DNA of 64,000 bases from Kordia antarctica (lineage in GTDB: Bacteria; Bacteroidota; Bacteroidia; Flavobacteriales; Flavobacteriaceae): assembly GCF_009901525.1 (NCBI RefSeq), contig NZ_CP019288.1, positions 1,364,001-1,428,000 on the forward strand, written 5' to 3'. The translations under genes and the position numbers were made by a program. Below are positions 18,362 to 29,468 of this stretch, one piece after another (the first letter of the stretch is position 1; the number at the start of each line of letters is the position of its first letter). The notes under the pieces were generated by a model, which saw only the letters and a list, made by a program, of their open reading frames with translations, searched no databases and was not told where the DNA came from.

Positions 18362-19156
18362 ATTTCTACAAAAAATACATATCCCGTTTTACAAGCTTCC
18401 GCACTTTCTATTGGTTATGAAGATAAAGCCACTACGAAAGTAATTGCAGAAGACATTAATTTCGAAATTTCGAAAGGAAAGTTGGTTGCCTTAGTTGGCG
18501 CAAACGGAATTGGAAAGTCTACGTTGTTGCGAACGTTGGCAAAAATTCAACAACCACTTTCGGGAGAAATTAGGTTGCAAAATAAGTCGCTTCACTCCTA
18601 CTCAAATGGCGAGTTGGCAAAAGAAATTAGTTTAGTTTTGACGGAACAAATTCCGTCTAAAAATTTAACGGTTTTAGAGTTAATTGCGCTTGGTCGCCAG
18701 CCTTATACCAATTGGATTGGAAATCTTTCTGAGAACGATCATGCAATTGTGGAAAGCGCATTAGATAAAACAAATTTGCACGAATTTAAACATCGAAAAT
18801 GCTACACATTGAGTGACGGACAGTTGCAAAAAGTAATGATTGCGCGCGCATTAGCACAAGATACATCTATGATTATTTTGGATGAACCAACAACGCATTT
18901 AGATATGTATCACAAAGCATATGTGTTGAATCTTTTGAAAAAATTAGCGCACGATACCCAAAAAACTATGTTGTTTTCTACGCATGAAATCGATTTAGCA
19001 ATTCAGTTGTGCGATGAAATGATTGTGATGCATAATGGCAACGTATTTTCGGGAACGCCTTGTAGTTTGATCGAACAAGGAATTTTTGAAGCTTTATTTC
19101 CTAATGATTTGATTGCTTTTGATGCGAGTTCGGGAAGTTTTAAAGTAAAAAGTTAA
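18362..19156 (+). CDS. FecE-like ABC transporter ATPase, probable ATT start
   Basis: The ATPase has Walker A GANGIGKST, signature LSDGQLQKVMIARAL, Walker B MIILDEP and an H-loop STHE, typical of iron-siderophore/haem importer ATPases (FecE/FhuC type). The first ATG/GTG/TTG in frame is TTG at 18482, which would begin only a few residues before Walker A and delete the first strands. The frame is open back to a stop at 18290, and the extra sequence is family-like (STKNTYPVLQASALSIGYED). ATT at 18362 gives a 264-aa protein of normal length, so I use it. No permease or binding-protein gene is adjacent. Confidence 0.8.
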   Translation: MSTKNTYPVLQASALSIGYEDKATTKVIAEDINFEISKGKLVALVGANGIGKSTLLRTLAKIQQPLSGEIRLQNKSLHSYSNGELAKEISLVLTEQIPSKNLTVLELIALGRQPYTNWIGNLSENDHAIVESALDKTNLHEFKHRKCYTLSDGQLQKVMIARALAQDTSMIILDEPTTHLDMYHKAYVLNLLKKLAHDTQKTMLFSTHEIDLAIQLCDEMIVMHNGNVFSGTPCSLIEQGIFEALFPNDLIAFDASSGSFKVKS

Positions 19157-19882: not shown

Positions 19883-19997
19883 AAAAAAACGCCTTATCCG
19901 AAGATGAGGCGCTTTTAAAACTAACCAACCAAAAATGTAATATGACTCTTTTACTTCAAGTAACCAGCTCTGTGTAATGTCATCATCATATTACATA
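19883..19997 (-). ncRNA. Tandem small RNA, unit 1 (promoter-distal)
   Basis: The predicted transcript runs from ~12 bp after the sigma-54-like element to the terminator. The closing stem is GTAATATG/CATATTAC, a perfect 8-bp pairing. The terminator stem is capped by a UUCG loop and followed by seven T. Its terminator sequence differs from units 2-4 while keeping the structure. No Rfam match could be tested; Flavo-1 is the first family to compare. Confidence 0.7.
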
Positions 19998-20006
19998 TAT
20001 TATAAG

Positions 20007-20023
20007 TCAACTTTCGTGCCAAA
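20007..20023 (-). promoter_or_regulatory. Sigma-54-like promoter element, unit 1
   Basis: The minus strand reads TTTGGCACGAAAGTTGA. The GG dinucleotide and the following G are separated by the 10 bases typical of -24/-12 promoters, but the -12 position is GA rather than GC. Confidence 0.55.
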
Positions 20024-20086
20024 TACTTACAAGGATTCTTAAAATATATAGCACTTTTGTTAAATATTTAAAATTGTATGTTAACG

Positions 20087-20200
20087 AAAAAAACACCTCA
20101 CAAGCGTGAAGTGTTTTATACTAACTAACCAACCAAAATGTAATACGACTCTTTTACTTCAAGTAACCAGCTCTGTGTAATGTCATCATCATACTACGCT
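20087..20200 (-). ncRNA. Tandem small RNA, unit 2
   Basis: About 114 nt between a sigma-54-like element and a terminator (stem AACACTTCAC/GTGAGGTGTT, loop GCTT, then a T-run). The closing stem is GTAGTATG/CGTATTAC with two G-U pairs. The interior includes ACAGAGCTGGTTACTTGAAG. Almost identical to units 3 and 4. Confidence 0.72.
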
Positions 20201-20210
20201 TTTATACATT

Positions 20211-20228
20211 TCAATTTCCGTGCCAAAA
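20211..20228 (-). promoter_or_regulatory. Sigma-54-like promoter element, unit 2
   Basis: The minus strand reads TTTTGGCACGGAAATTGA: a -24 box TTGGCACG and a -12 half TTGA at the canonical spacing. Confidence 0.55.
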
Positions 20229-20290
20229 TGAAATTTATATTCTTAAATAATGTTAGTGTTTTGTTAAAGATTTAGAATATACTATTAACG

Positions 20291-20405
20291 AAAAAAACAC
20301 CTCACAAGCGTGAAGTGTTTTTATACTAACTAACCAACCAAAATGTAATACGACTCTTTTACTTCAAGTAACCAACTCTGTGTAATGTCATCATCATAGT
20401 ACACT
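20291..20405 (-). ncRNA. Tandem small RNA, unit 3
   Basis: Same layout as unit 2. The closing stem GTACTATG/CGTATTAC has one C-T mismatch, the only unit in which the helix is imperfect, so this copy may be decaying. The terminator hairpin is at 20296-20319. Confidence 0.7.
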
Positions 20406-20415
20406 TTTATACATT

Positions 20416-20434
20416 TCAACTTCCGTGCCAAAAT
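20416..20434 (-). promoter_or_regulatory. Sigma-54-like promoter element, unit 3
   Basis: The minus strand reads TTTTGGCACGGAAGTTGA. The -24 box is identical to those of the other units. Confidence 0.55.
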
Positions 20435-20495
20435 TGGATTTGTGTTTATAAATAATGTTAGTGTTTTGTTAAAAATTTAGAATATACTATTAACG

Positions 20496-20609
20496 AAAAA
20501 AACACCTCACAAGCGTGAAGTGTTTTTATACTAACTAACCAACCAAAATGTAATATGACTCTTTTACTTCAAGTAACCAGCTCTGTGTAATGTCATCATC
20601 ATACTACGC
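20496..20609 (-). ncRNA. Tandem small RNA, unit 4
   Basis: Same layout as unit 2. The closing stem is GTAGTATG/CATATTAC, fully paired with one G-U. A change relative to unit 2 turns a G-U pair into A-U, conserving the helix. The terminator hairpin is at 20501-20524. Confidence 0.72.
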
Positions 20610-20619
20610 TTTACATATT

Positions 20620-20637
20620 TCAATTTCCGTGCCAAAA
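20620..20637 (-). promoter_or_regulatory. Sigma-54-like promoter element, unit 4
   Basis: The minus strand reads TTTTGGCACGGAAATTGA, identical to the unit 2 element. Confidence 0.55.
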
Positions 20638-20698
20638 TTTGATTTGTGTTTATAAATAATGTTAGTTTTTTGTTAAATAATCAGAACATATAGGAACT

Positions 20699-20815
20699 AA
20701 AAAAACACTTCACGTTTATGAAGTGTTTTTTTAAACTAACTAACCAATCAAATGTAACACGACTATCTTTAAATTGAGTAAGCCACTCTACATAATGTCC
20801 TCACCGCGTTACATT
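20699..20815 (-). ncRNA. Tandem small RNA, unit 5 (diverged)
   Basis: The most upstream and most diverged unit. The closing stem is GTAACGCG/CGTGTTAC, fully paired although several positions differ from the other units; two positions show paired changes. The terminator is a perfect 12-bp stem (AAAAACACTTCA/TGAAGTGTTTTT). The interior loop region keeps only partial similarity (GGACATTATGTAGAGTGGCT). Confidence 0.68.
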
Positions 20816-20824
20816 TTACTATAA

Positions 20825-20843
20825 TCCAAGTACCGTGCCAAAA
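20825..20843 (-). promoter_or_regulatory. Sigma-54-like promoter element, unit 5
   Basis: The minus strand reads TTTTGGCACGGTACTTGGA. The -24 box is invariant; the -12 half is TTGG. Confidence 0.5.
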
Positions 20844-21135: not shown

Positions 21136-22554
21136 ATGTCAGAAATCGTTATTTATATTATCCTCATTGTGGTGTTTTTAGCCGTTGGTATTTTCTTGGG
21201 AATGTACATTGGTAATCTAAAAACAAAAGCACAACAAGAAGGTTTGCAAGAGCGTAATTATCGATTACAATTACAATTTGATGATTTCAAAGTAGCAGTC
21301 GATAACGAAAAGTCGCAACAAAACGAGTCGTTTCAACAGCAACTAAATGGCATCAAAGAAAATTTATCCAAAACCGAACATGATCGCGAAGAAATTAGAC
21401 GCGAAAAAGATTTCCTCAATGTAGAACTCGCTCGGAGAAATTCTGAATTAGAAAATCTACAAAAACAATTACGCGAACGCGACGAACAAATGAAAGTGCA
21501 GCAAGAACAATTGCGCAAAGATTTTGAGCTACTCGCAAATAAAATTCTGGAAGAAAAATCATCAAAATTTACCGAGCAAAACAAAGAGAATATAAAAAAT
21601 ATTTTGACGCCACTTCAAGAAAAAATTCAACACTTTGAAAAGAAAGTGGAAGACAGTCAAAAGGAAAACATAAGTATTCATTCCGCTTTGCGCGAAAAAC
21701 TATCTGAACTTAGTAAAGCAAATATTCAAATCAGTCAAGAAGCTGTCAATCTAACGAAAGCCTTAAAAGGTGACAGCAAAATGCAAGGAAATTGGGGCGA
21801 ATTGGTCTTAGAGCGTGTTTTGGAAAAAAGTGGTTTAGAAAAAGATCGCGAATATGTAGTGCAACAAAATTTCGCTCGTGAAGATGGTTCGCGTTCATTA
21901 CCTGATGTGATTATCAACTTGCCAAATAATAAAAAAATGGTGATTGATTCCAAAGTTTCGCTAACTTCATACGAACGTTTTGTAAACTGCGAAGATTCAG
22001 AAAGAGCAATGTATCTAAAAGAACATTTAACTTCAATAAAACGACATATAGATCAACTTTCAGCAAAGAAATACGAAGACTTATACGAAATAGAAAGTCC
22101 CGATTTTGTATTAATGTTTGTACCAATAGAACCTGCGTTTGCCATTGCAATTAATGAAGATAATTCGTTATACAACAAAGCATTCGAAAAAAATATTGTC
22201 ATTGTAACTCCAACAACGTTACTCGCTACTTTACGTACGATTGACACGATGTGGAATAATGAAAAACAACAACAAAACGCAATTGAAATTGCGCGACAAG
22301 CTGGTTCATTATACGATAAATTTGAAGGTTTTATGAGCGACCTCATCGGAATTGGAAAAAAGATCGACGCTACAAAATCTGACTATTCTTCAGCGATGAA
22401 TAAACTGTTTGAAGGTCGTGGAAACATCATCACAAGTATTGAAAAGATCAAAAAAATGGGCGCGAAAGCTAAAAAGTCACTTCCAGAAGCTATCATAAAA
22501 CGTGCTAAAAATGAACATCTAAATCATGATGAAGAACCGAAACGATTGCTTTAG
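21136..22554 (+). CDS. rmuC: DNA recombination protein RmuC
   Basis: 472 residues. An N-terminal membrane anchor (IYIILIVVFLAVGIFLGMYIG-like, ~5-25) is followed by a long coiled coil (~30-200) and the RmuC nuclease-like core (GNWGELVLERVLEKSGL, LPDVIINLPNNKKMVIDSK, DFVLMFVPIEPAF). This is the normal order and length for the family. RmuC is associated with limiting DNA inversions and rearrangements and has a PD-(D/E)XK-like fold. It stands alone on the plus strand. Confidence 0.93.
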   Translation: MSEIVIYIILIVVFLAVGIFLGMYIGNLKTKAQQEGLQERNYRLQLQFDDFKVAVDNEKSQQNESFQQQLNGIKENLSKTEHDREEIRREKDFLNVELARRNSELENLQKQLRERDEQMKVQQEQLRKDFELLANKILEEKSSKFTEQNKENIKNILTPLQEKIQHFEKKVEDSQKENISIHSALREKLSELSKANIQISQEAVNLTKALKGDSKMQGNWGELVLERVLEKSGLEKDREYVVQQNFAREDGSRSLPDVIINLPNNKKMVIDSKVSLTSYERFVNCEDSERAMYLKEHLTSIKRHIDQLSAKKYEDLYEIESPDFVLMFVPIEPAFAIAINEDNSLYNKAFEKNIVIVTPTTLLATLRTIDTMWNNEKQQQNAIEIARQAGSLYDKFEGFMSDLIGIGKKIDATKSDYSSAMNKLFEGRGNIITSIEKIKKMGAKAKKSLPEAIIKRAKNEHLNHDEEPKRLL

Positions 22555-23612: not shown

Positions 23613-25451
23613 TTAGAAGATAAATAACTTAAAACCTTTTTTCCGTTTTAGCGGTTTTACTGGAAACATCTTAAATTTTATAGTAGCTGGCAAAGCTTCA
23701 TTCATGAATAAGTATGCATGATTATAGATAGATTTGTTTAAGTCTAAATTTGGCACATAATTTCCGTGTGTCTTTTTTTGTTCTATAATAAATACTTTCT
23801 TTTGATCGGCTCTAAATTTCATTGGTATACTTTTAGAACCCAATTTCCCTCCTATAAAAAGTTCGTCATTTCGGTATTCTTGATTCGGATAAATCACTTT
23901 AAAAGTTAGTCCTAAAGTTGCAATATTATAAAAATAAGAAACCGCTTTTCTATTTCGAATTGTAGTAGCGCCAGTTTCATCAGTTTCCATAACGAAGTAG
24001 TAATCCAATAATTTTTTTGATTTCTGTTTCTTATCTAAATTCATCAAGTATTGTAAATAAGAAGCATATGTTAATCCGTTGGAAAGTGTTTCAATTGGAC
24101 GATCTAACAAAATGATTTCCTTTCCGCTAGTTATCGTGTATGTATTCTTTTTAATGTATAATTGAAAATCTGCTTTATTGGTAATTACAGGTTGATTTCC
24201 TTTTGGAGTTAAATACAACGAGGAAAGACCTTTAGATTCCTCTGAAAAAAGCTGAATTTTGAATGACTTTTCAATGTATTGTAATTGAATTGGCACCAAT
24301 AATGAGTTGTTCAAAATTTCTTTATCAATAGATGTGTTACAGATAAATTTACTTTCTGTTTCATTAGCCGTGACTACTTTTCCGTAGCCAACAATACGAT
24401 CATTTGCACGATGTATAATTTTAAAAATTACATCTTCAGTAATTCCATGAATCTTTCCGTAAGGTAAATACAAAGCTCTATTTTTATCTACTCTAAAATC
24501 TTTTGGAAAATAGCTCGTTAAGAAATATGAATATTTGGATGTGATTTCAGACGTATTGAAAAGTGTTTCGGTAATATCGCCGCTTAATGTTGGTTTTTGA
24601 GAAGAAATTCCTTCTAGAAAATCAAATGATTCCAATACATTTTTTTTGAAAAAATACTGATAACTAATTCCTGTAGAACCTTTTATCTCATTAAATCCAT
24701 TTACAATAGCATATGTCAACGAACCTAAATCTTTGCTATATTGCGTATTTACTTGATGGGCTTCGGAAGCTGTCATTAATATAAATGGACCCAATTTTTT
24801 GTCAGTATCAAAAAGCTCCTTCAGTTCTAAACTATCTTTTGCCTTTTTCGAAACGATATCTTTTAAGATAAATTTTTTATTGGTTCCTCTAATTGGTAAA
24901 TTATCCGAACCTTTATCGGTTGTTCCTGAAAAACAGGCATCTACGCCCATAAAAAGTTGCCCTTTTTGGTTTAACCGTTTTCTAATATCGTAAATAATAA
25001 GTTGTAATTCATCATCTAATAAATGCTTTTCTCCTTTATAATTTGCTTGATATTTGGCTTCCTTTGGCGTGTCATACAATACAATTGCTTCATCTAATTG
25101 ATCTTGTTTTTCATCGCCATTACTATCTGTAATTTGTTGTCCGTGCGAAGCAAAATATAAAAATACAATACTGGTAGAATCTTTTATAGTTGTAGTAAAA
25201 CTTCGCAAACTATCTAACACATTTTGCTTTGTAGCATCTTCATTTTTAAGTAGATGAATGTCTTTTGAATGAAATCCTTGCGTCATTAAAAACGCTCGTA
25301 AATACTCCACATCATTATCTCCAGAAATATTTGTCCAACCTAATCCTGAATCTTCATAATTTCCAACACCAACCAAAAAAGCTTTCTTAGTTTGTGCATT
25401 CACAGAAAAAAAAGACAGGAATAACCAACAAATAGCAAGTATTGTACGCAT
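23613..25451 (-). CDS. Secreted caspase-family (C14) protein
   Basis: 612 residues. Signal peptide MRTILAICWLFLSFFSVNAQ. Residues ~22-290 form a caspase-like domain (KAFLVGVGNYED) with catalytic His103 in YFASHGQQI and Cys173 in GVDACFSGT. The remainder (~300-612) is beta-rich and unassigned. Both catalytic residues are present, so proteolytic activity is plausible, in the periplasm or outside. It is divergent from a second, larger caspase-domain gene starting ~50 bp away, suggesting shared control. Confidence 0.85.
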   Translation of the reverse strand: MRTILAICWLFLSFFSVNAQTKKAFLVGVGNYEDSGLGWTNISGDNDVEYLRAFLMTQGFHSKDIHLLKNEDATKQNVLDSLRSFTTTIKDSTSIVFLYFASHGQQITDSNGDEKQDQLDEAIVLYDTPKEAKYQANYKGEKHLLDDELQLIIYDIRKRLNQKGQLFMGVDACFSGTTDKGSDNLPIRGTNKKFILKDIVSKKAKDSLELKELFDTDKKLGPFILMTASEAHQVNTQYSKDLGSLTYAIVNGFNEIKGSTGISYQYFFKKNVLESFDFLEGISSQKPTLSGDITETLFNTSEITSKYSYFLTSYFPKDFRVDKNRALYLPYGKIHGITEDVIFKIIHRANDRIVGYGKVVTANETESKFICNTSIDKEILNNSLLVPIQLQYIEKSFKIQLFSEESKGLSSLYLTPKGNQPVITNKADFQLYIKKNTYTITSGKEIILLDRPIETLSNGLTYASYLQYLMNLDKKQKSKKLLDYYFVMETDETGATTIRNRKAVSYFYNIATLGLTFKVIYPNQEYRNDELFIGGKLGSKSIPMKFRADQKKVFIIEQKKTHGNYVPNLDLNKSIYNHAYLFMNEALPATIKFKMFPVKPLKRKKGFKLFIF

Positions 25452-25502: not shown

Positions 25503-28500
25503 ATACATTCTTCCTTAAAAACATTCCTCATTCGTTGTTGCATTTTTCTATGTATTACAACTACTTTTTCTCAGACAACTGAAAAAAAGCTAGCATTAAA
25601 ATTTGATAGTTTTGACGAAGTATACAAAGCTTTAGAAGATGGAGAGGAAACGATTCACATAAACCGCAAAGAAAACAGAATCGTCATTCCTACGCGTCAA
25701 GGACTTTCTTTGTATAGTATTTCTCCATTCAGAAAAATGAATTATGTTCAAAATACCATTCTCGATTCATTAATTGATACTTCAGATGAATTATATGACG
25801 ATACTATAAAAAGCTGTATTTATTACACAGATTATACGGTTAAACTTGAAAAAAATTGCAAACACACTAAACATTCTGATGATTTTGTAGCATCAAATAG
25901 TAAGCTTCAACCGATACTTAGCTTAGCATATGATAAAGAGGAAACAAAAGATTTTCTGAAAGATTTAGCAATTAAATTTGATCCGTTAAAATTCGTTTCT
26001 GCACTATTCATCATTGATATTAGTACAATAGATCCTAAACATATTTCTAATGTAGATGGTGAGTTTGAATTTTCTGCGGAAGCAAATCTCGAAGAAAACA
26101 TCGAAAAATATCTAAAGTATGTCATTATAAATTATAACGATCGATGTGTTGCGTATACAAAAGATGGAACTGTTGTGTTTGAGGAAAAAATGGCGTCCAC
26201 CAACTTTTATAATAATGGCTCTTTTGTTTTGACAAGCTACGAAATGATTTCGCCGTTGGCACATTTATACACAGGAGTTAGTTTTGCAGGTTTTGAAATT
26301 GCAAAGAAAAATATATTTTTACTTGATTTTCAATTCCAAAATAAACAATTTGTTACCTCTTTAAAAAATCAAAAAAGAGATGGAACTAAAACATTTCAAG
26401 TAGCAGAAGCATTTAAAAAATTCATGCTTTCTACAGAAAACATCATACTTAAAAATAATACACCAAAAAGATTCGTTGTAAACACATTTAATAGAAATAA
26501 AAAAGTAGTGTTTGATGCAAGTGCGATTACTAAAAAAACATCTTATGAAAATCTTGTAATTACCTACGAATCGCTAGAATTAAATTTAGATACTGAATTT
26601 AAGAACGAAAACAGCTTTGACTATGAAATTCTAAGTTCATTTAAAGATTTTATAGTCGTTCTCAAAAAAGAGATCTATAAAGACGATGCTTCTGTTTTTA
26701 ATAATGAATTAATACTTATTGGCGTTGCAGATGGACAATTAAAACACGAATTATTAATCACCTTTTTCTCCTATCTTCAAATAGAAGAAATAGTTCTTTT
26801 AGAAGGAAATGAACAAATAGAAATTGCCGCTTTTTTTCTTGATAAAACAAAAAATACACGGCAAATAGAAAGTTTTATAATCGATTCATTTTTTGAATTT
26901 TATCACAATGGAACAATAAAATTTAATGGAACTAAGAACCATCTTGAAAGTAATAATGGTCTTTATATGCTATTTAATACTGATATTGGCTACACTAAAA
27001 ATGTTTATAAAGAATATACAAATGTCGTTTATGATTATGTCGATATTAATAATGGAAATTACTATATGTATTATGATTATGAATATCCGAAAGATACATT
27101 TTTCATTAATAATATAACTGCAACAAACTTCAAATTAGACAATTATGTAACTGCAACAGTAAATGATCTTGTAGATGCAAAAAATATTGAAACACTATCT
27201 TTATACAAACAGAATCTTCTTGATACTGAAAATATTCAGGTTGAATATACGTATGAAAAAGTATTTAAAGATGAATATTCATATGAACAAAAAGATACAT
27301 ATCGAATTACGACTAACGGCAAAGAAAAATCAGTTCAACTAAAAACATATTCGCGAAAAATTGGACAAAAATATGCGTTGTCGCCTTCGGTATTAGTAGG
27401 CTATTCTAATGATTTAAAGTACTTTCTTTTTTATTCGAATGATGATCTTATAAATGGTTCCCTAAAAGTATATGATTTTGAAAAAGGTACCTTTATTTTT
27501 TCTAAATTTTTAGGTGGCAATCGCACTTCTGCAAACATTGATTATTTCCAAGGAATGTCTTTTTCTGTATTTAAAGACAAACTAATCATTCGCTATAACA
27601 ATGTTGAATCTGAGATTTATGATCTCAATACTTCTGAAAAATTAGCAGACTATTATTACTATTCAGATGACGAATGGTATGTAGTTACACCAAGCGGTTT
27701 GTATGACAAATCCAGTAAAAAAACGGATAAACTCTATTATGTGTATGACAAGAAAGAGCTTTTTGAATTGGATCAATTTAAAAAAGAATACCAATACAAC
27801 GATCTCTTGCCATTAATTTTAGGTATTAGCGACAGATCGTTTCCAAAACAATTGAATCTACAAGATGAAATTAAAAAATTGCCGCCTGAAATTGTATATC
27901 AAATTCAAAATAACAAAACACTAAAAGGAACGATTAAAAAACGAGAAGGTGGCGCACGTAATATTTTTTTCTGCATTGCTGGAAGTGAAAAAAAAGAAAT
28001 TAAGCCACAATTTAATTCGGAAGGAATTGCTTCTTTTAAAATAGACCTTTCTGAGTTTAAAGATGATTATCTTAATGAAAACAATAAAATTTATGTAAAA
28101 GCTTCCAATGCAACGAATACAATTACGAGCAAAGGCGAAATCTTAAACTTTCAATATCAACAAAACACGCAAGAAATTACCAAAGCAACGGAGGAAGATA
28201 AAAATGAACCCATCACAAATGCAAAACTCTATGCGCTTTTTGTCGGAATTGAAAATTATGACAACAGACCTTTAGAATATGCGGAAGATGATGCAAGCGA
28301 CATGAAAATGTGTGTGGAACTCATTAATAAAAACTTATACACGAATGCGCCTGAAATTATCTATTTACCAAACGAAGAAGCGTCTAAAAAAAACATTACA
28401 GATGCATTAAAATACATTCAAGAAAAAGCAAATGCGGAAGATGTTGTCCTACTCTACTTTAGCGGGCACGGAATTACTGGAGAAGCATTAGAAAATGATT

Positions 28501-29468
28501 ATGACGAAGTGACAAATCGTAATTTCTATTTCATAACGGAAGATTTTAATTATGTAAACAAAGAATATTTCTCTGAACTTTCCATTGATGAAAATCTAGA
28601 AAGCAAACAAGCAATTTCATCTACAGAATTAAATCATTTTTTAGCTGGTGACAACATGAATGCGCAAAAGAAAATATTAATTATGGATGCGTGTTTTTCT
28701 GGCAGACTTTTAAATCCTTCGTCAAATAAGTTCGCAAAATCAGATGAAAATAATCTCACATACGCGCAAGAAAAAGCATTGCAAGAACTAAATTCAAAAA
28801 CAGGAACGATTATATTAACGGCTTCTCGAAGCGATGACAGAGCCTACGAAACAGAAAATTATCAACATTCGTTTTTAGCTTGGGGATTATTAAAAGCACT
28901 AAAAGACAAAGATTACAGCAAATACGGCGACAATGTAAAAGTGGATGCTTGGCTAAAATATGCAAAATACATTGTAGAAAATGAAATTACAGATCTCAAC
29001 ATTCAAAAACCTGCGATCAGCACAAATGAAGATGTCGATTTTGCAATTGGTTCTGTAAAAAATGACATCTTAAAAAACTTTACATTAGCTGGCGCATTGC
29101 CAATTATGAATACCGCAGATATTTCTGCCGAAAATCCGCAATCGCGTGGAAAAGCAGCTACGATTCGGTTAGCAATTAATAATCAATTGAAAAGATATGT
29201 TGAGGATAAAAATAGTACTGACAAAAAATTTACGTTCAGAGATTCCGATTATGCCGATTCTGGATATCGTATTTGGGGAAAAATTTCTAGTAAAGATAAC
29301 ATTTCAACACTTACGTTTTCACTCTTAAAAGATGGGAAACCTATTCAATTGGATATGAAATCAGCTAACAATCAATCAAATCCATATGAATATTCTAAAA
29401 CATTTGACACTACTGATCTTGAAAAAAATATAATTACATTTGTGAAAACCATCATCAACCAACTATAA
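25503..29468 (+). CDS. Secreted beta-propeller/caspase protein, non-ATG start
   Basis: The first standard start codon in frame is TTG at 25710, but the frame continues upstream through a clear signal peptide (KTFLIRCCIFLCITTTFSQ). ATA at 25503 or ATT at 25530 are the best candidates; I use ATA, giving 1321 residues. A large N-terminal half looks like repeated beta-propeller blades (~100-760). A C-terminal caspase domain begins ~920 (LYALFVGIENYDN) with His989 in YFSGHGITG and Cys1064 in MDACFSGR. It lies 11 bp upstream of a barrel-like protein gene, with which it is probably co-transcribed. Substrate unknown. Confidence 0.8.
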   Translation: MHSSLKTFLIRCCIFLCITTTFSQTTEKKLALKFDSFDEVYKALEDGEETIHINRKENRIVIPTRQGLSLYSISPFRKMNYVQNTILDSLIDTSDELYDDTIKSCIYYTDYTVKLEKNCKHTKHSDDFVASNSKLQPILSLAYDKEETKDFLKDLAIKFDPLKFVSALFIIDISTIDPKHISNVDGEFEFSAEANLEENIEKYLKYVIINYNDRCVAYTKDGTVVFEEKMASTNFYNNGSFVLTSYEMISPLAHLYTGVSFAGFEIAKKNIFLLDFQFQNKQFVTSLKNQKRDGTKTFQVAEAFKKFMLSTENIILKNNTPKRFVVNTFNRNKKVVFDASAITKKTSYENLVITYESLELNLDTEFKNENSFDYEILSSFKDFIVVLKKEIYKDDASVFNNELILIGVADGQLKHELLITFFSYLQIEEIVLLEGNEQIEIAAFFLDKTKNTRQIESFIIDSFFEFYHNGTIKFNGTKNHLESNNGLYMLFNTDIGYTKNVYKEYTNVVYDYVDINNGNYYMYYDYEYPKDTFFINNITATNFKLDNYVTATVNDLVDAKNIETLSLYKQNLLDTENIQVEYTYEKVFKDEYSYEQKDTYRITTNGKEKSVQLKTYSRKIGQKYALSPSVLVGYSNDLKYFLFYSNDDLINGSLKVYDFEKGTFIFSKFLGGNRTSANIDYFQGMSFSVFKDKLIIRYNNVESEIYDLNTSEKLADYYYYSDDEWYVVTPSGLYDKSSKKTDKLYYVYDKKELFELDQFKKEYQYNDLLPLILGISDRSFPKQLNLQDEIKKLPPEIVYQIQNNKTLKGTIKKREGGARNIFFCIAGSEKKEIKPQFNSEGIASFKIDLSEFKDDYLNENNKIYVKASNATNTITSKGEILNFQYQQNTQEITKATEEDKNEPITNAKLYALFVGIENYDNRPLEYAEDDASDMKMCVELINKNLYTNAPEIIYLPNEEASKKNITDALKYIQEKANAEDVVLLYFSGHGITGEALENDYDEVTNRNFYFITEDFNYVNKEYFSELSIDENLESKQAISSTELNHFLAGDNMNAQKKILIMDACFSGRLLNPSSNKFAKSDENNLTYAQEKALQELNSKTGTIILTASRSDDRAYETENYQHSFLAWGLLKALKDKDYSKYGDNVKVDAWLKYAKYIVENEITDLNIQKPAISTNEDVDFAIGSVKNDILKNFTLAGALPIMNTADISAENPQSRGKAATIRLAINNQLKRYVEDKNSTDKKFTFRDSDYADSGYRIWGKISSKDNISTLTFSLLKDGKPIQLDMKSANNQSNPYEYSKTFDTTDLEKNIITFVKTIINQL

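Follow-up and report, generated by a model that had tools for sequence, protein, structure and literature searches.

Five tandem units lie on the minus strand of the window (the whole 64,000-nt stretch of the Kordia antarctica chromosome that was analysed) between positions 19883 and 20842, each consisting of a promoter, a predicted structured RNA of ~113–116 nt and a terminator. The element TTTGGCACG is found five times on this strand (at 20842, 20636, 20432, 20227 and 20023, with spacings of 206, 204, 205 and 204), Tandem Repeats Finder reports a period of 205 with 4.1 copies, and a hairpin followed by a T-run closes every unit. Measured from the predicted +1 to the T-run, and defined by promoter spacing and fold, the putative RNAs are unit 1 (20699..20814, ~116 nt, nearest to rmuC), unit 2 (20496..20608, ~113 nt), unit 3 (20291..20404, ~114 nt), unit 4 (20087..20199, ~113 nt) and unit 5 (19883..19995, ~113 nt, with a different terminator hairpin). 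The first-pass annotation had described five repeat units of ~204 bp on this strand, each with a stretch of ~115 nt and a terminator, and both parts of that description are borne out. It had also placed the differences between units outside structure and signals; this does not hold for all differences, as unit 1 has diverged within the stem and the tail. On the plus strand, the array is flanked by two conserved neighbours: an ABC ATP-binding gene (18482..19156, ABC_tran), which lies outside the RNA system, and rmuC (21136..22554, RmuC domain). Elsewhere in the window, two adjacent genes in divergent orientation encode caspase (Peptidase_C14) domains (23613-25451 on the minus strand and 25710-29468 on the plus strand). 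A sixth copy of the RNA is found elsewhere in the genome (G000:C1:4891743).

The promoter-like element noted earlier in each unit can now be assigned to a class: the site TGGCACG-N4-TTG follows the sigma-54 consensus, with TTTGGCACG as its −24 half, and a TTG comes after this half at sigma-54 spacing in each of the five units. The predicted −24/−12 sites, identified by sequence pattern, are at 20827..20842 (unit 1, TTTGGCACGGTACTTG), 20621..20636 (unit 2), 20417..20432 (unit 3), 20212..20227 (unit 4) and 20008..20023 (unit 5), all on the minus strand, and the predicted start was set 12 nt past the −12 position; by sequence, the sixth copy has such a site as well. The 16-nt pattern TTTGGCAYN5TTG has 26 sites in the 5.5-Mb genome (15 for the reversed control), and because five of the 26 fall within a stretch of 835 bp, here in the array, the five promoter sites are not due to chance. 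At least one Kordia array also includes a unit with a degenerate promoter. Further upstream, an element TTTAACA...TTTTTAAG recurs by eye before the −24 box of many Kordia array units. Another motif, TGATATCA, is upstream in 57 of 171 family matches and precedes a Band-7 gene in this genome; we rejected it as an enhancer motif, as it may belong to the Band-7 gene. Neither this motif nor the TTTAACA element could be matched to an activator.

Folding of units 1–5 gives z-scores of −3.69, −2.07, −2.00, −1.28 and −2.68, with 1, 9, 6, 20 and 2 of 200 shuffles, respectively, folding as well; the fold of unit 4 is weak, and the closing stem is absent from the MFE structure of unit 3. The pairs of the closing stem covary: in 37 distinct Kordia units, the 12 predicted pairs make up 444 cells, of which 434 form standard pairs, and four of the 12 show two-sided changes. 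The 434 paired cells compare with a mean of 417 (highest 423) in 500 column shuffles, which ignore the relatedness of the units, and with 81–208 when the partners are slid by 1–3 columns. In a set of 69 non-redundant RNAs (three of 174 records were dropped as coding, one of them a match in a Bacilli MAG), the 5′ domain has a mean MFE z of −1.99, unpairedness is higher in the tail (0.58) than over the RNA as a whole (0.39), and 7.9 closing pairs are expected vs 3.2 in shuffles (55 of the 69 RNAs are above their own shuffles). RNAalifold on the wider, divergent family recovered the terminator only, and covariation is given for the Kordia units only.

BLAST matches were found in the genome itself, in all ten other genomes of the genus and in seven of 26 other genomes of the family, but in none of 23 genomes from other families. 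The joint pattern of sigma-54 site and tail is present in 67 of 299 genomes of the family (a few of the matches are coding), vs 0/299 for the reversed control. An order-wide scan of 246 genomes found it in four members of the family, in none of the 206 genomes from other families of the order and in none of 22 from one large genus (g147). Carriers named among the matches listed include Winogradskyella, Algibacter, Psychroserpens, Gelidibacter, Formosa and Lacinutrix. The proximity to rmuC, which the first-pass annotation had marked as a point to look for in relatives, recurs in all eight other Kordia loci examined: the ABC ATPase gene is on one side of the array and rmuC on the other, and each array has 3–4 strictly matched copies (five here). 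In six of these eight loci (L312-L317), an 861–865-aa gene is located inside the array on the sRNA strand; the one scanned (L312:6429-9017) encodes a Reg_prop/Y_Y_Y/LytTR regulator. At that place there is a 1623-aa ORF in L310 and nothing in L311, and the gene is absent from the window. In a tree of the units, in which four of 27 inner branches are well supported, unit 1 groups with the first (rmuC-side) units of the eight other Kordia arrays (support 89/90), and units 2–4 of this genome group together, which suggests recent duplication as the origin of the middle copies. The sixth copy is situated between Band-7 and AlkB-like (2OG-Fe(II) oxygenase) genes, and for 35 of the 69 non-redundant members at least one of these two genes is found within 2.5 kb (some loci had flanks of only 1.5 kb).

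The nearly invariant part of the RNA is a tail, GGUUGGUUAGUU, directly before the terminator; on the minus strand it is at 20738..20749 in unit 1 (variant GATTGGTTAGTT), 20533..20544 in unit 2 (GGTTGGTTAGTT), 20328..20339 in unit 3, 20123..20134 in unit 4 and 19919..19930 in unit 5. The same tail is found beyond the sRNA genes: TTGGTTGGTTAGTT is present in 179 of 299 genomes, and we read 60 stretches (20 + 40) around the listed sites, nearly all of them unmatched by the sRNA pattern, with four others added and one site at the edge of a contig left out. Out of 68 unique tail sites, 56 follow an ORF of at least 100 aa within 130 nt, and a terminator-like hairpin comes after 53; three look like sRNAs, and nine have neither ORF nor promoter (three of these nine are exact complements situated at the start of a different gene). 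A strict sigma-54 site is found for 34 of the 56 tail-ending ORFs, and a comparison within the same stretches gives 33 of 52 tail-ending ORFs vs 11 of 134 others (p=3e-14). Since orthologues are not independent, we collapsed these counts to protein families: three of nine tail-bearing families have the site vs two of 79 (p=0.007), and with a relaxed site, which admits ClpB, four of nine vs three of 79 (p=0.0016). The remaining five tail-bearing families, which include LuxE-like proteins and 171-aa membrane proteins, have no site even under the relaxed pattern.

Most of the mRNA-end cases belong to one family of secreted Arg/Ser-rich proteins (30 of 53 ORFs), all 30 with a sigma-54 site; the proteins with Arg/Ser-rich ends are ~400 aa long (L247, L250, L254, L264 and similar). 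Two sigma-54 genes of this genome that resemble the family by eye (L324 and L325) have no tail, and the L325 protein has no Pfam match. The excerpts of PMC9723704 list ClpB and other chaperones of F. psychrophilum with −24/−12 promoters. Pairs of GAC(N5)GTC palindromes (GACAAAAAGTC, GACATTTTGTC) are seen by eye upstream of clpB in L255, L258, L265, L268, L272 and L274, preceding a sigma-54-like site (TTGGTA...TTG), and may be an activator-binding site. We also considered minimal RNAs starting at the tail, of which there is one attractive case (L097); this is not a general form, because a promoter-to-tail gap of 3–33 nt is found in only two of 299 genomes.

Complements of the tail are found at gene starts. 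With one mismatch allowed, eight of 22 and then nine of 36 sites in this genome (the 36 include one repeat cluster) are at gene starts in the pairing orientation, and none in the other. A reversed-seed control places six of 29 sites at starts, with no significant difference, so the A/C-rich composition of starts explains much of this signal, and we do not use the looser sites as evidence. In a sample drawn without regard to the tail (forty 20-kb Kordia stretches plus the window, 607 ORF starts, start region −40 to +10), complements of at least 8 nt occur in 15 of 607 start regions, as compared with a mean of 4.7 in shuffles, and none of 119 dinucleotide-preserving shuffles reaches 15. For complements of at least 9 nt there are eight vs 0.94 (reached by one of 119 shuffles), and 7-nt complements are unremarkable in this sample (35 vs 22.6, reached by 29 of 119). 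Mononucleotide permutations reach the 8-nt count of 15 in nine of 300 cases and the 9-nt count in two of 300. The enrichment is confined to starts, with 0–3 complements at each of eight other positions. Among over-represented 8-mers of start regions, AACTAACC ranks 13 (eight vs 0.93) and ACTAACCA ranks 15 (seven vs 0.81), with GTCATTCT lying between; higher-ranked ones resemble TAnnTTTG, the housekeeping promoter element, or the GTTGGCAA repeat.

In other tail-bearing genera, complements are found for 6.4 of 197 protein clusters vs 1.46 (one of 119 shuffles reaches this), after three genes previously selected for an exact 14-nt complement were dropped; genes for a sodium:solute symporter and an S15 peptidase are among these three, which come from other genomes. 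Two Cytophagia replicons (Flammeovirga, Bernardetia) have gene starts of similar composition, and the 400 kb sampled from them contain no tail; two of 278 starts have a complement there vs 2.5 expected, a difference from the Kordia count (15/607) that is not decisive alone. The 15 genes include those for a Na/Ca exchanger, a patatin, a LytTR response regulator, a CarboxypepD_reg protein, an amidohydrolase and a Pvc16-like protein, the last with a 10-nt complement at its start (L461:3467-4042); Pvc16 is part of a contractile injection apparatus. Envelope and exported proteins seem to recur among these genes.

With moderate confidence, we take the array to encode multicopy Flavobacteriaceae sRNAs that are triggered by sigma-54 and, independently of Hfq, repress many mRNAs through pairing of the tail at their starts. 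Sigma-54 requires an activator; the genome has ten PF00158 matches, including three strong NtrC-type activators (two with a receiver domain and one without) near G000:C1:5450916, 1875217 and 2753423, none of them beside the array. Once a sigma-54 activator of the cell is switched on, each copy would be transcribed from its own −24/−12 promoter and stopped by its own terminator, yielding an RNA of ~115 nt made up of a 5′ hairpin whose stem covaries, the GGUUGGUUAGUU tail as a single strand, and the terminator. The tail core UUGGUUAGUU would then pair with sites of the AACUAACCAA type at translation starts and most likely block initiation, and it is plausible, given the tandem arrangement, that the copies raise the dose. 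Perhaps a hundred mRNAs would be targets, a figure scaled from the 15 of 607 starts, of which chance would account for about one in three. This would take place without Hfq: the Hfq family (PF17209) matches none of 40 genomes searched, this one included, and a control finds it in five of 14 named genomes. Bacteroides thetaiotaomicron is likewise not known to have Hfq. Cold-shock-like genes lie behind two more of the genome's sigma-54 sites; these are a pair of very similar 63-aa genes at G000:C1:513510 and 515914 (L320 and L321) that begin ~55 nt past the beginning of the site, and a CSD domain was found in L321; that these are co-regulated RNA chaperones is speculation. The same tail and terminator end some mRNAs with sigma-54 sites (those of the secreted Arg/Ser-rich family, a lipoprotein, an Hsp20-like protein and probably ClpB), and the 3′ ends of such mRNAs may themselves function as this regulator or give rise to it. 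A broader proposal, which we make only tentatively, is a noncoding arm of sigma-54 in Flavobacteriaceae, in which multicopy sRNAs and mRNA 3′ ends carry one identical tail that pairs with many starts in an Hfq-free manner, so that any sigma-54-activated transcript would repress the same genes.

The alternative that we take most seriously, unlikely as we judge it, is that the RNAs are protein decoys, whose GGUU-rich loops and tails titrate an RNA-binding protein that also binds mRNA 3′ ends, as in the titration-type RNAs CsrB and CrcZ, with no base-pairing involved. The tail shared in sense orientation by sRNAs and mRNA 3′ ends argues equally for a protein-binding element, GGUUA is also found in the apical hairpin loop in Kordia, and the lack of an Hfq match means that another RNA-binding protein would be needed. 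A decoy, however, does not predict tail complements solely at translation starts, and each RNA has one tail rather than many repeats. It is more doubtful still that the tail is merely a 3′-end stability or termination element and that the RNAs have no trans function. The terminator-like hairpins following most tail sites fit this, but the terminator hairpins vary in sequence between copies and the tail hardly at all; the stand-alone RNAs keep their 5′ domain, with a promoter-to-tail gap of 58–88 nt in 67 of 299 genomes as against the two with the short gap; and the tandem amplification is left unexplained.

Two further explanations concern the transcript and its promoter. Although no ORF of at least 80 aa is found in the array, in agreement with the first-pass annotation, its statement that there is no ORF fails for short frames: units 2–5 each contain a 12-codon micro-ORF. 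On one reading, each unit would code for a micro-peptide (MMMTLHRAGYLK and relatives), and the RNA would be either the mRNA for it or an RNA with a dual function. Of the 22 non-first units in nine Kordia arrays, 21 retain the core M...R.GYL, but seven of nine first units are without this frame, one has only GYS and one has none, T-tracts of 1, 3, 4, 5, 6 or 7 nt shift the frame downstream of the core, the sixth copy reads MTFS-stop, and the GYL frame is found in one of 61 non-Kordia RNAs. The changes in the stem are, moreover, compensatory. We therefore rejected the micro-peptide as the main reading, given the first units, the sixth copy and the other genera without the frame, and consider it very improbable; covariation, family-wide conservation and the lack of a kept frame outside Kordia instead support the earlier view that each of these units is a small-RNA gene with a promoter and a terminator of its own. 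That the RNAs are real but have an ordinary housekeeping promoter, with an incidental sigma-54 match, seems to us extremely improbable. Sigma-54 dependence is deduced from sequence, which leaves room for such a promoter, but a strict TGGCAY-N5-TTG site at near-fixed spacing is found in 29 of 30 BLAST loci, with a variant in the remaining one. Of the nine among these loci (three of them in Kordia) where the alignment does not cover the promoter, eight have the strict site and the ninth a TGGTAT variant (TTTGGTATGAAAGTTG). According to the excerpts of PMC9723704, mutagenesis in F. psychrophilum showed that a −24/−12 motif contributes to transcription of the remF operon, which also speaks against a housekeeping promoter.

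No Rfam family matches the window at gathering thresholds, and at E<=5 the array has ten matches, none of them to Qrr; Chlorobi-1, isrN and the other matches are far below the cut-offs and were rejected as evidence of membership. The array has no match to the Rfam model of Flavo-1 (presumably RF01705), so membership of Flavo-1 or another Rfam family, which the first-pass annotation had left undecided, finds no support. The analogy with Qrr, also raised in that annotation, is stronger than could be seen at the time, the promoter being of the sigma-54 type. The Qrr sRNAs of Vibrio are encoded by several sibling genes, every one of which has its own sigma-54 promoter and terminator; they depend on Hfq and are controlled by a LuxO-type activator. 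Like Qrr, the RNAs described here have sibling copies (5 + 1), a sigma-54 promoter and a terminator each, and a proposed pairing with mRNA starts. Unlike Qrr, they are in tandem at one locus, belong to a different phylum, have another sequence and a tail common to mRNA 3′ ends, and show no Rfam match, no Hfq match in the clade and no strong activator gene by the array. We suggest by analogy that the RNA works like Qrr and yet is not Qrr, with no model match, no Hfq and no adjacent activator. LhrC1-7 of Listeria are likewise multicopy sRNAs, but they have another promoter type and other motifs, and the array has no Rfam match. GlnZ has a link to sigma-54. In the excerpts of PMC9731577, GlnZ-type sRNA comes from the 3′ UTR of glnA and thus resembles our case as a regulator from an mRNA 3′ end; it is enterobacterial and tied to one gene, whereas here one identical tail is on several mRNAs as well as in dedicated sRNA genes.

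The excerpts of PMC11697453 name Qrr of Vibrio and LhrC1-7 of Listeria as families, and describe FopS/GibS of Bacteroides thetaiotaomicron as multicopy RNAs with a shared single-stranded seed that repress translation of SusC-like targets; FopS has canonical sigma-ABfr promoters, its seed in a 5′ single-stranded stretch and 14 paralogues, in Bacteroidaceae. As far as these excerpts go, our RNAs are similar in being multicopy Bacteroidota sRNAs with a common single-stranded seed, and different in their sigma-54 promoters, in the position of the tail beside the terminator and in belonging to Flavobacteriaceae. No Rfam match to FopS/GibS was found in the array, with the Rfam copy searched being one that may or may not include FopS. 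Closer in promoter type is Rfp36 of F. psychrophilum, given in the excerpts of PMC9723704 as a putative regulatory RNA downstream of a −24/−12 site, in expression cluster B419 with the remF gliding operon; compared by description alone, it is also a putative sRNA behind such a site, and it may be related to the array RNA. The RNA of the array is not described in the excerpts seen of the open-access PMC literature, including PMC9723704, PMC11697453 and PMC12316311.

The array belongs to a conserved sRNA family whose promoter class can be recognized and whose tail is defined, with sites at many mRNA starts that can be tested; the clade has cultured members such as Kordia algicida. To our knowledge, few sRNAs are understood in Bacteroidota. 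With Hfq found in none of the genomes searched, how Hfq-free bacteria run base-pairing sRNAs becomes a directly testable matter in this family. If the proposed mechanism is true, sigma-54 would act via a multicopy sRNA far outside Vibrio, and one regulator would be common to sRNA genes and mRNA 3′ ends.
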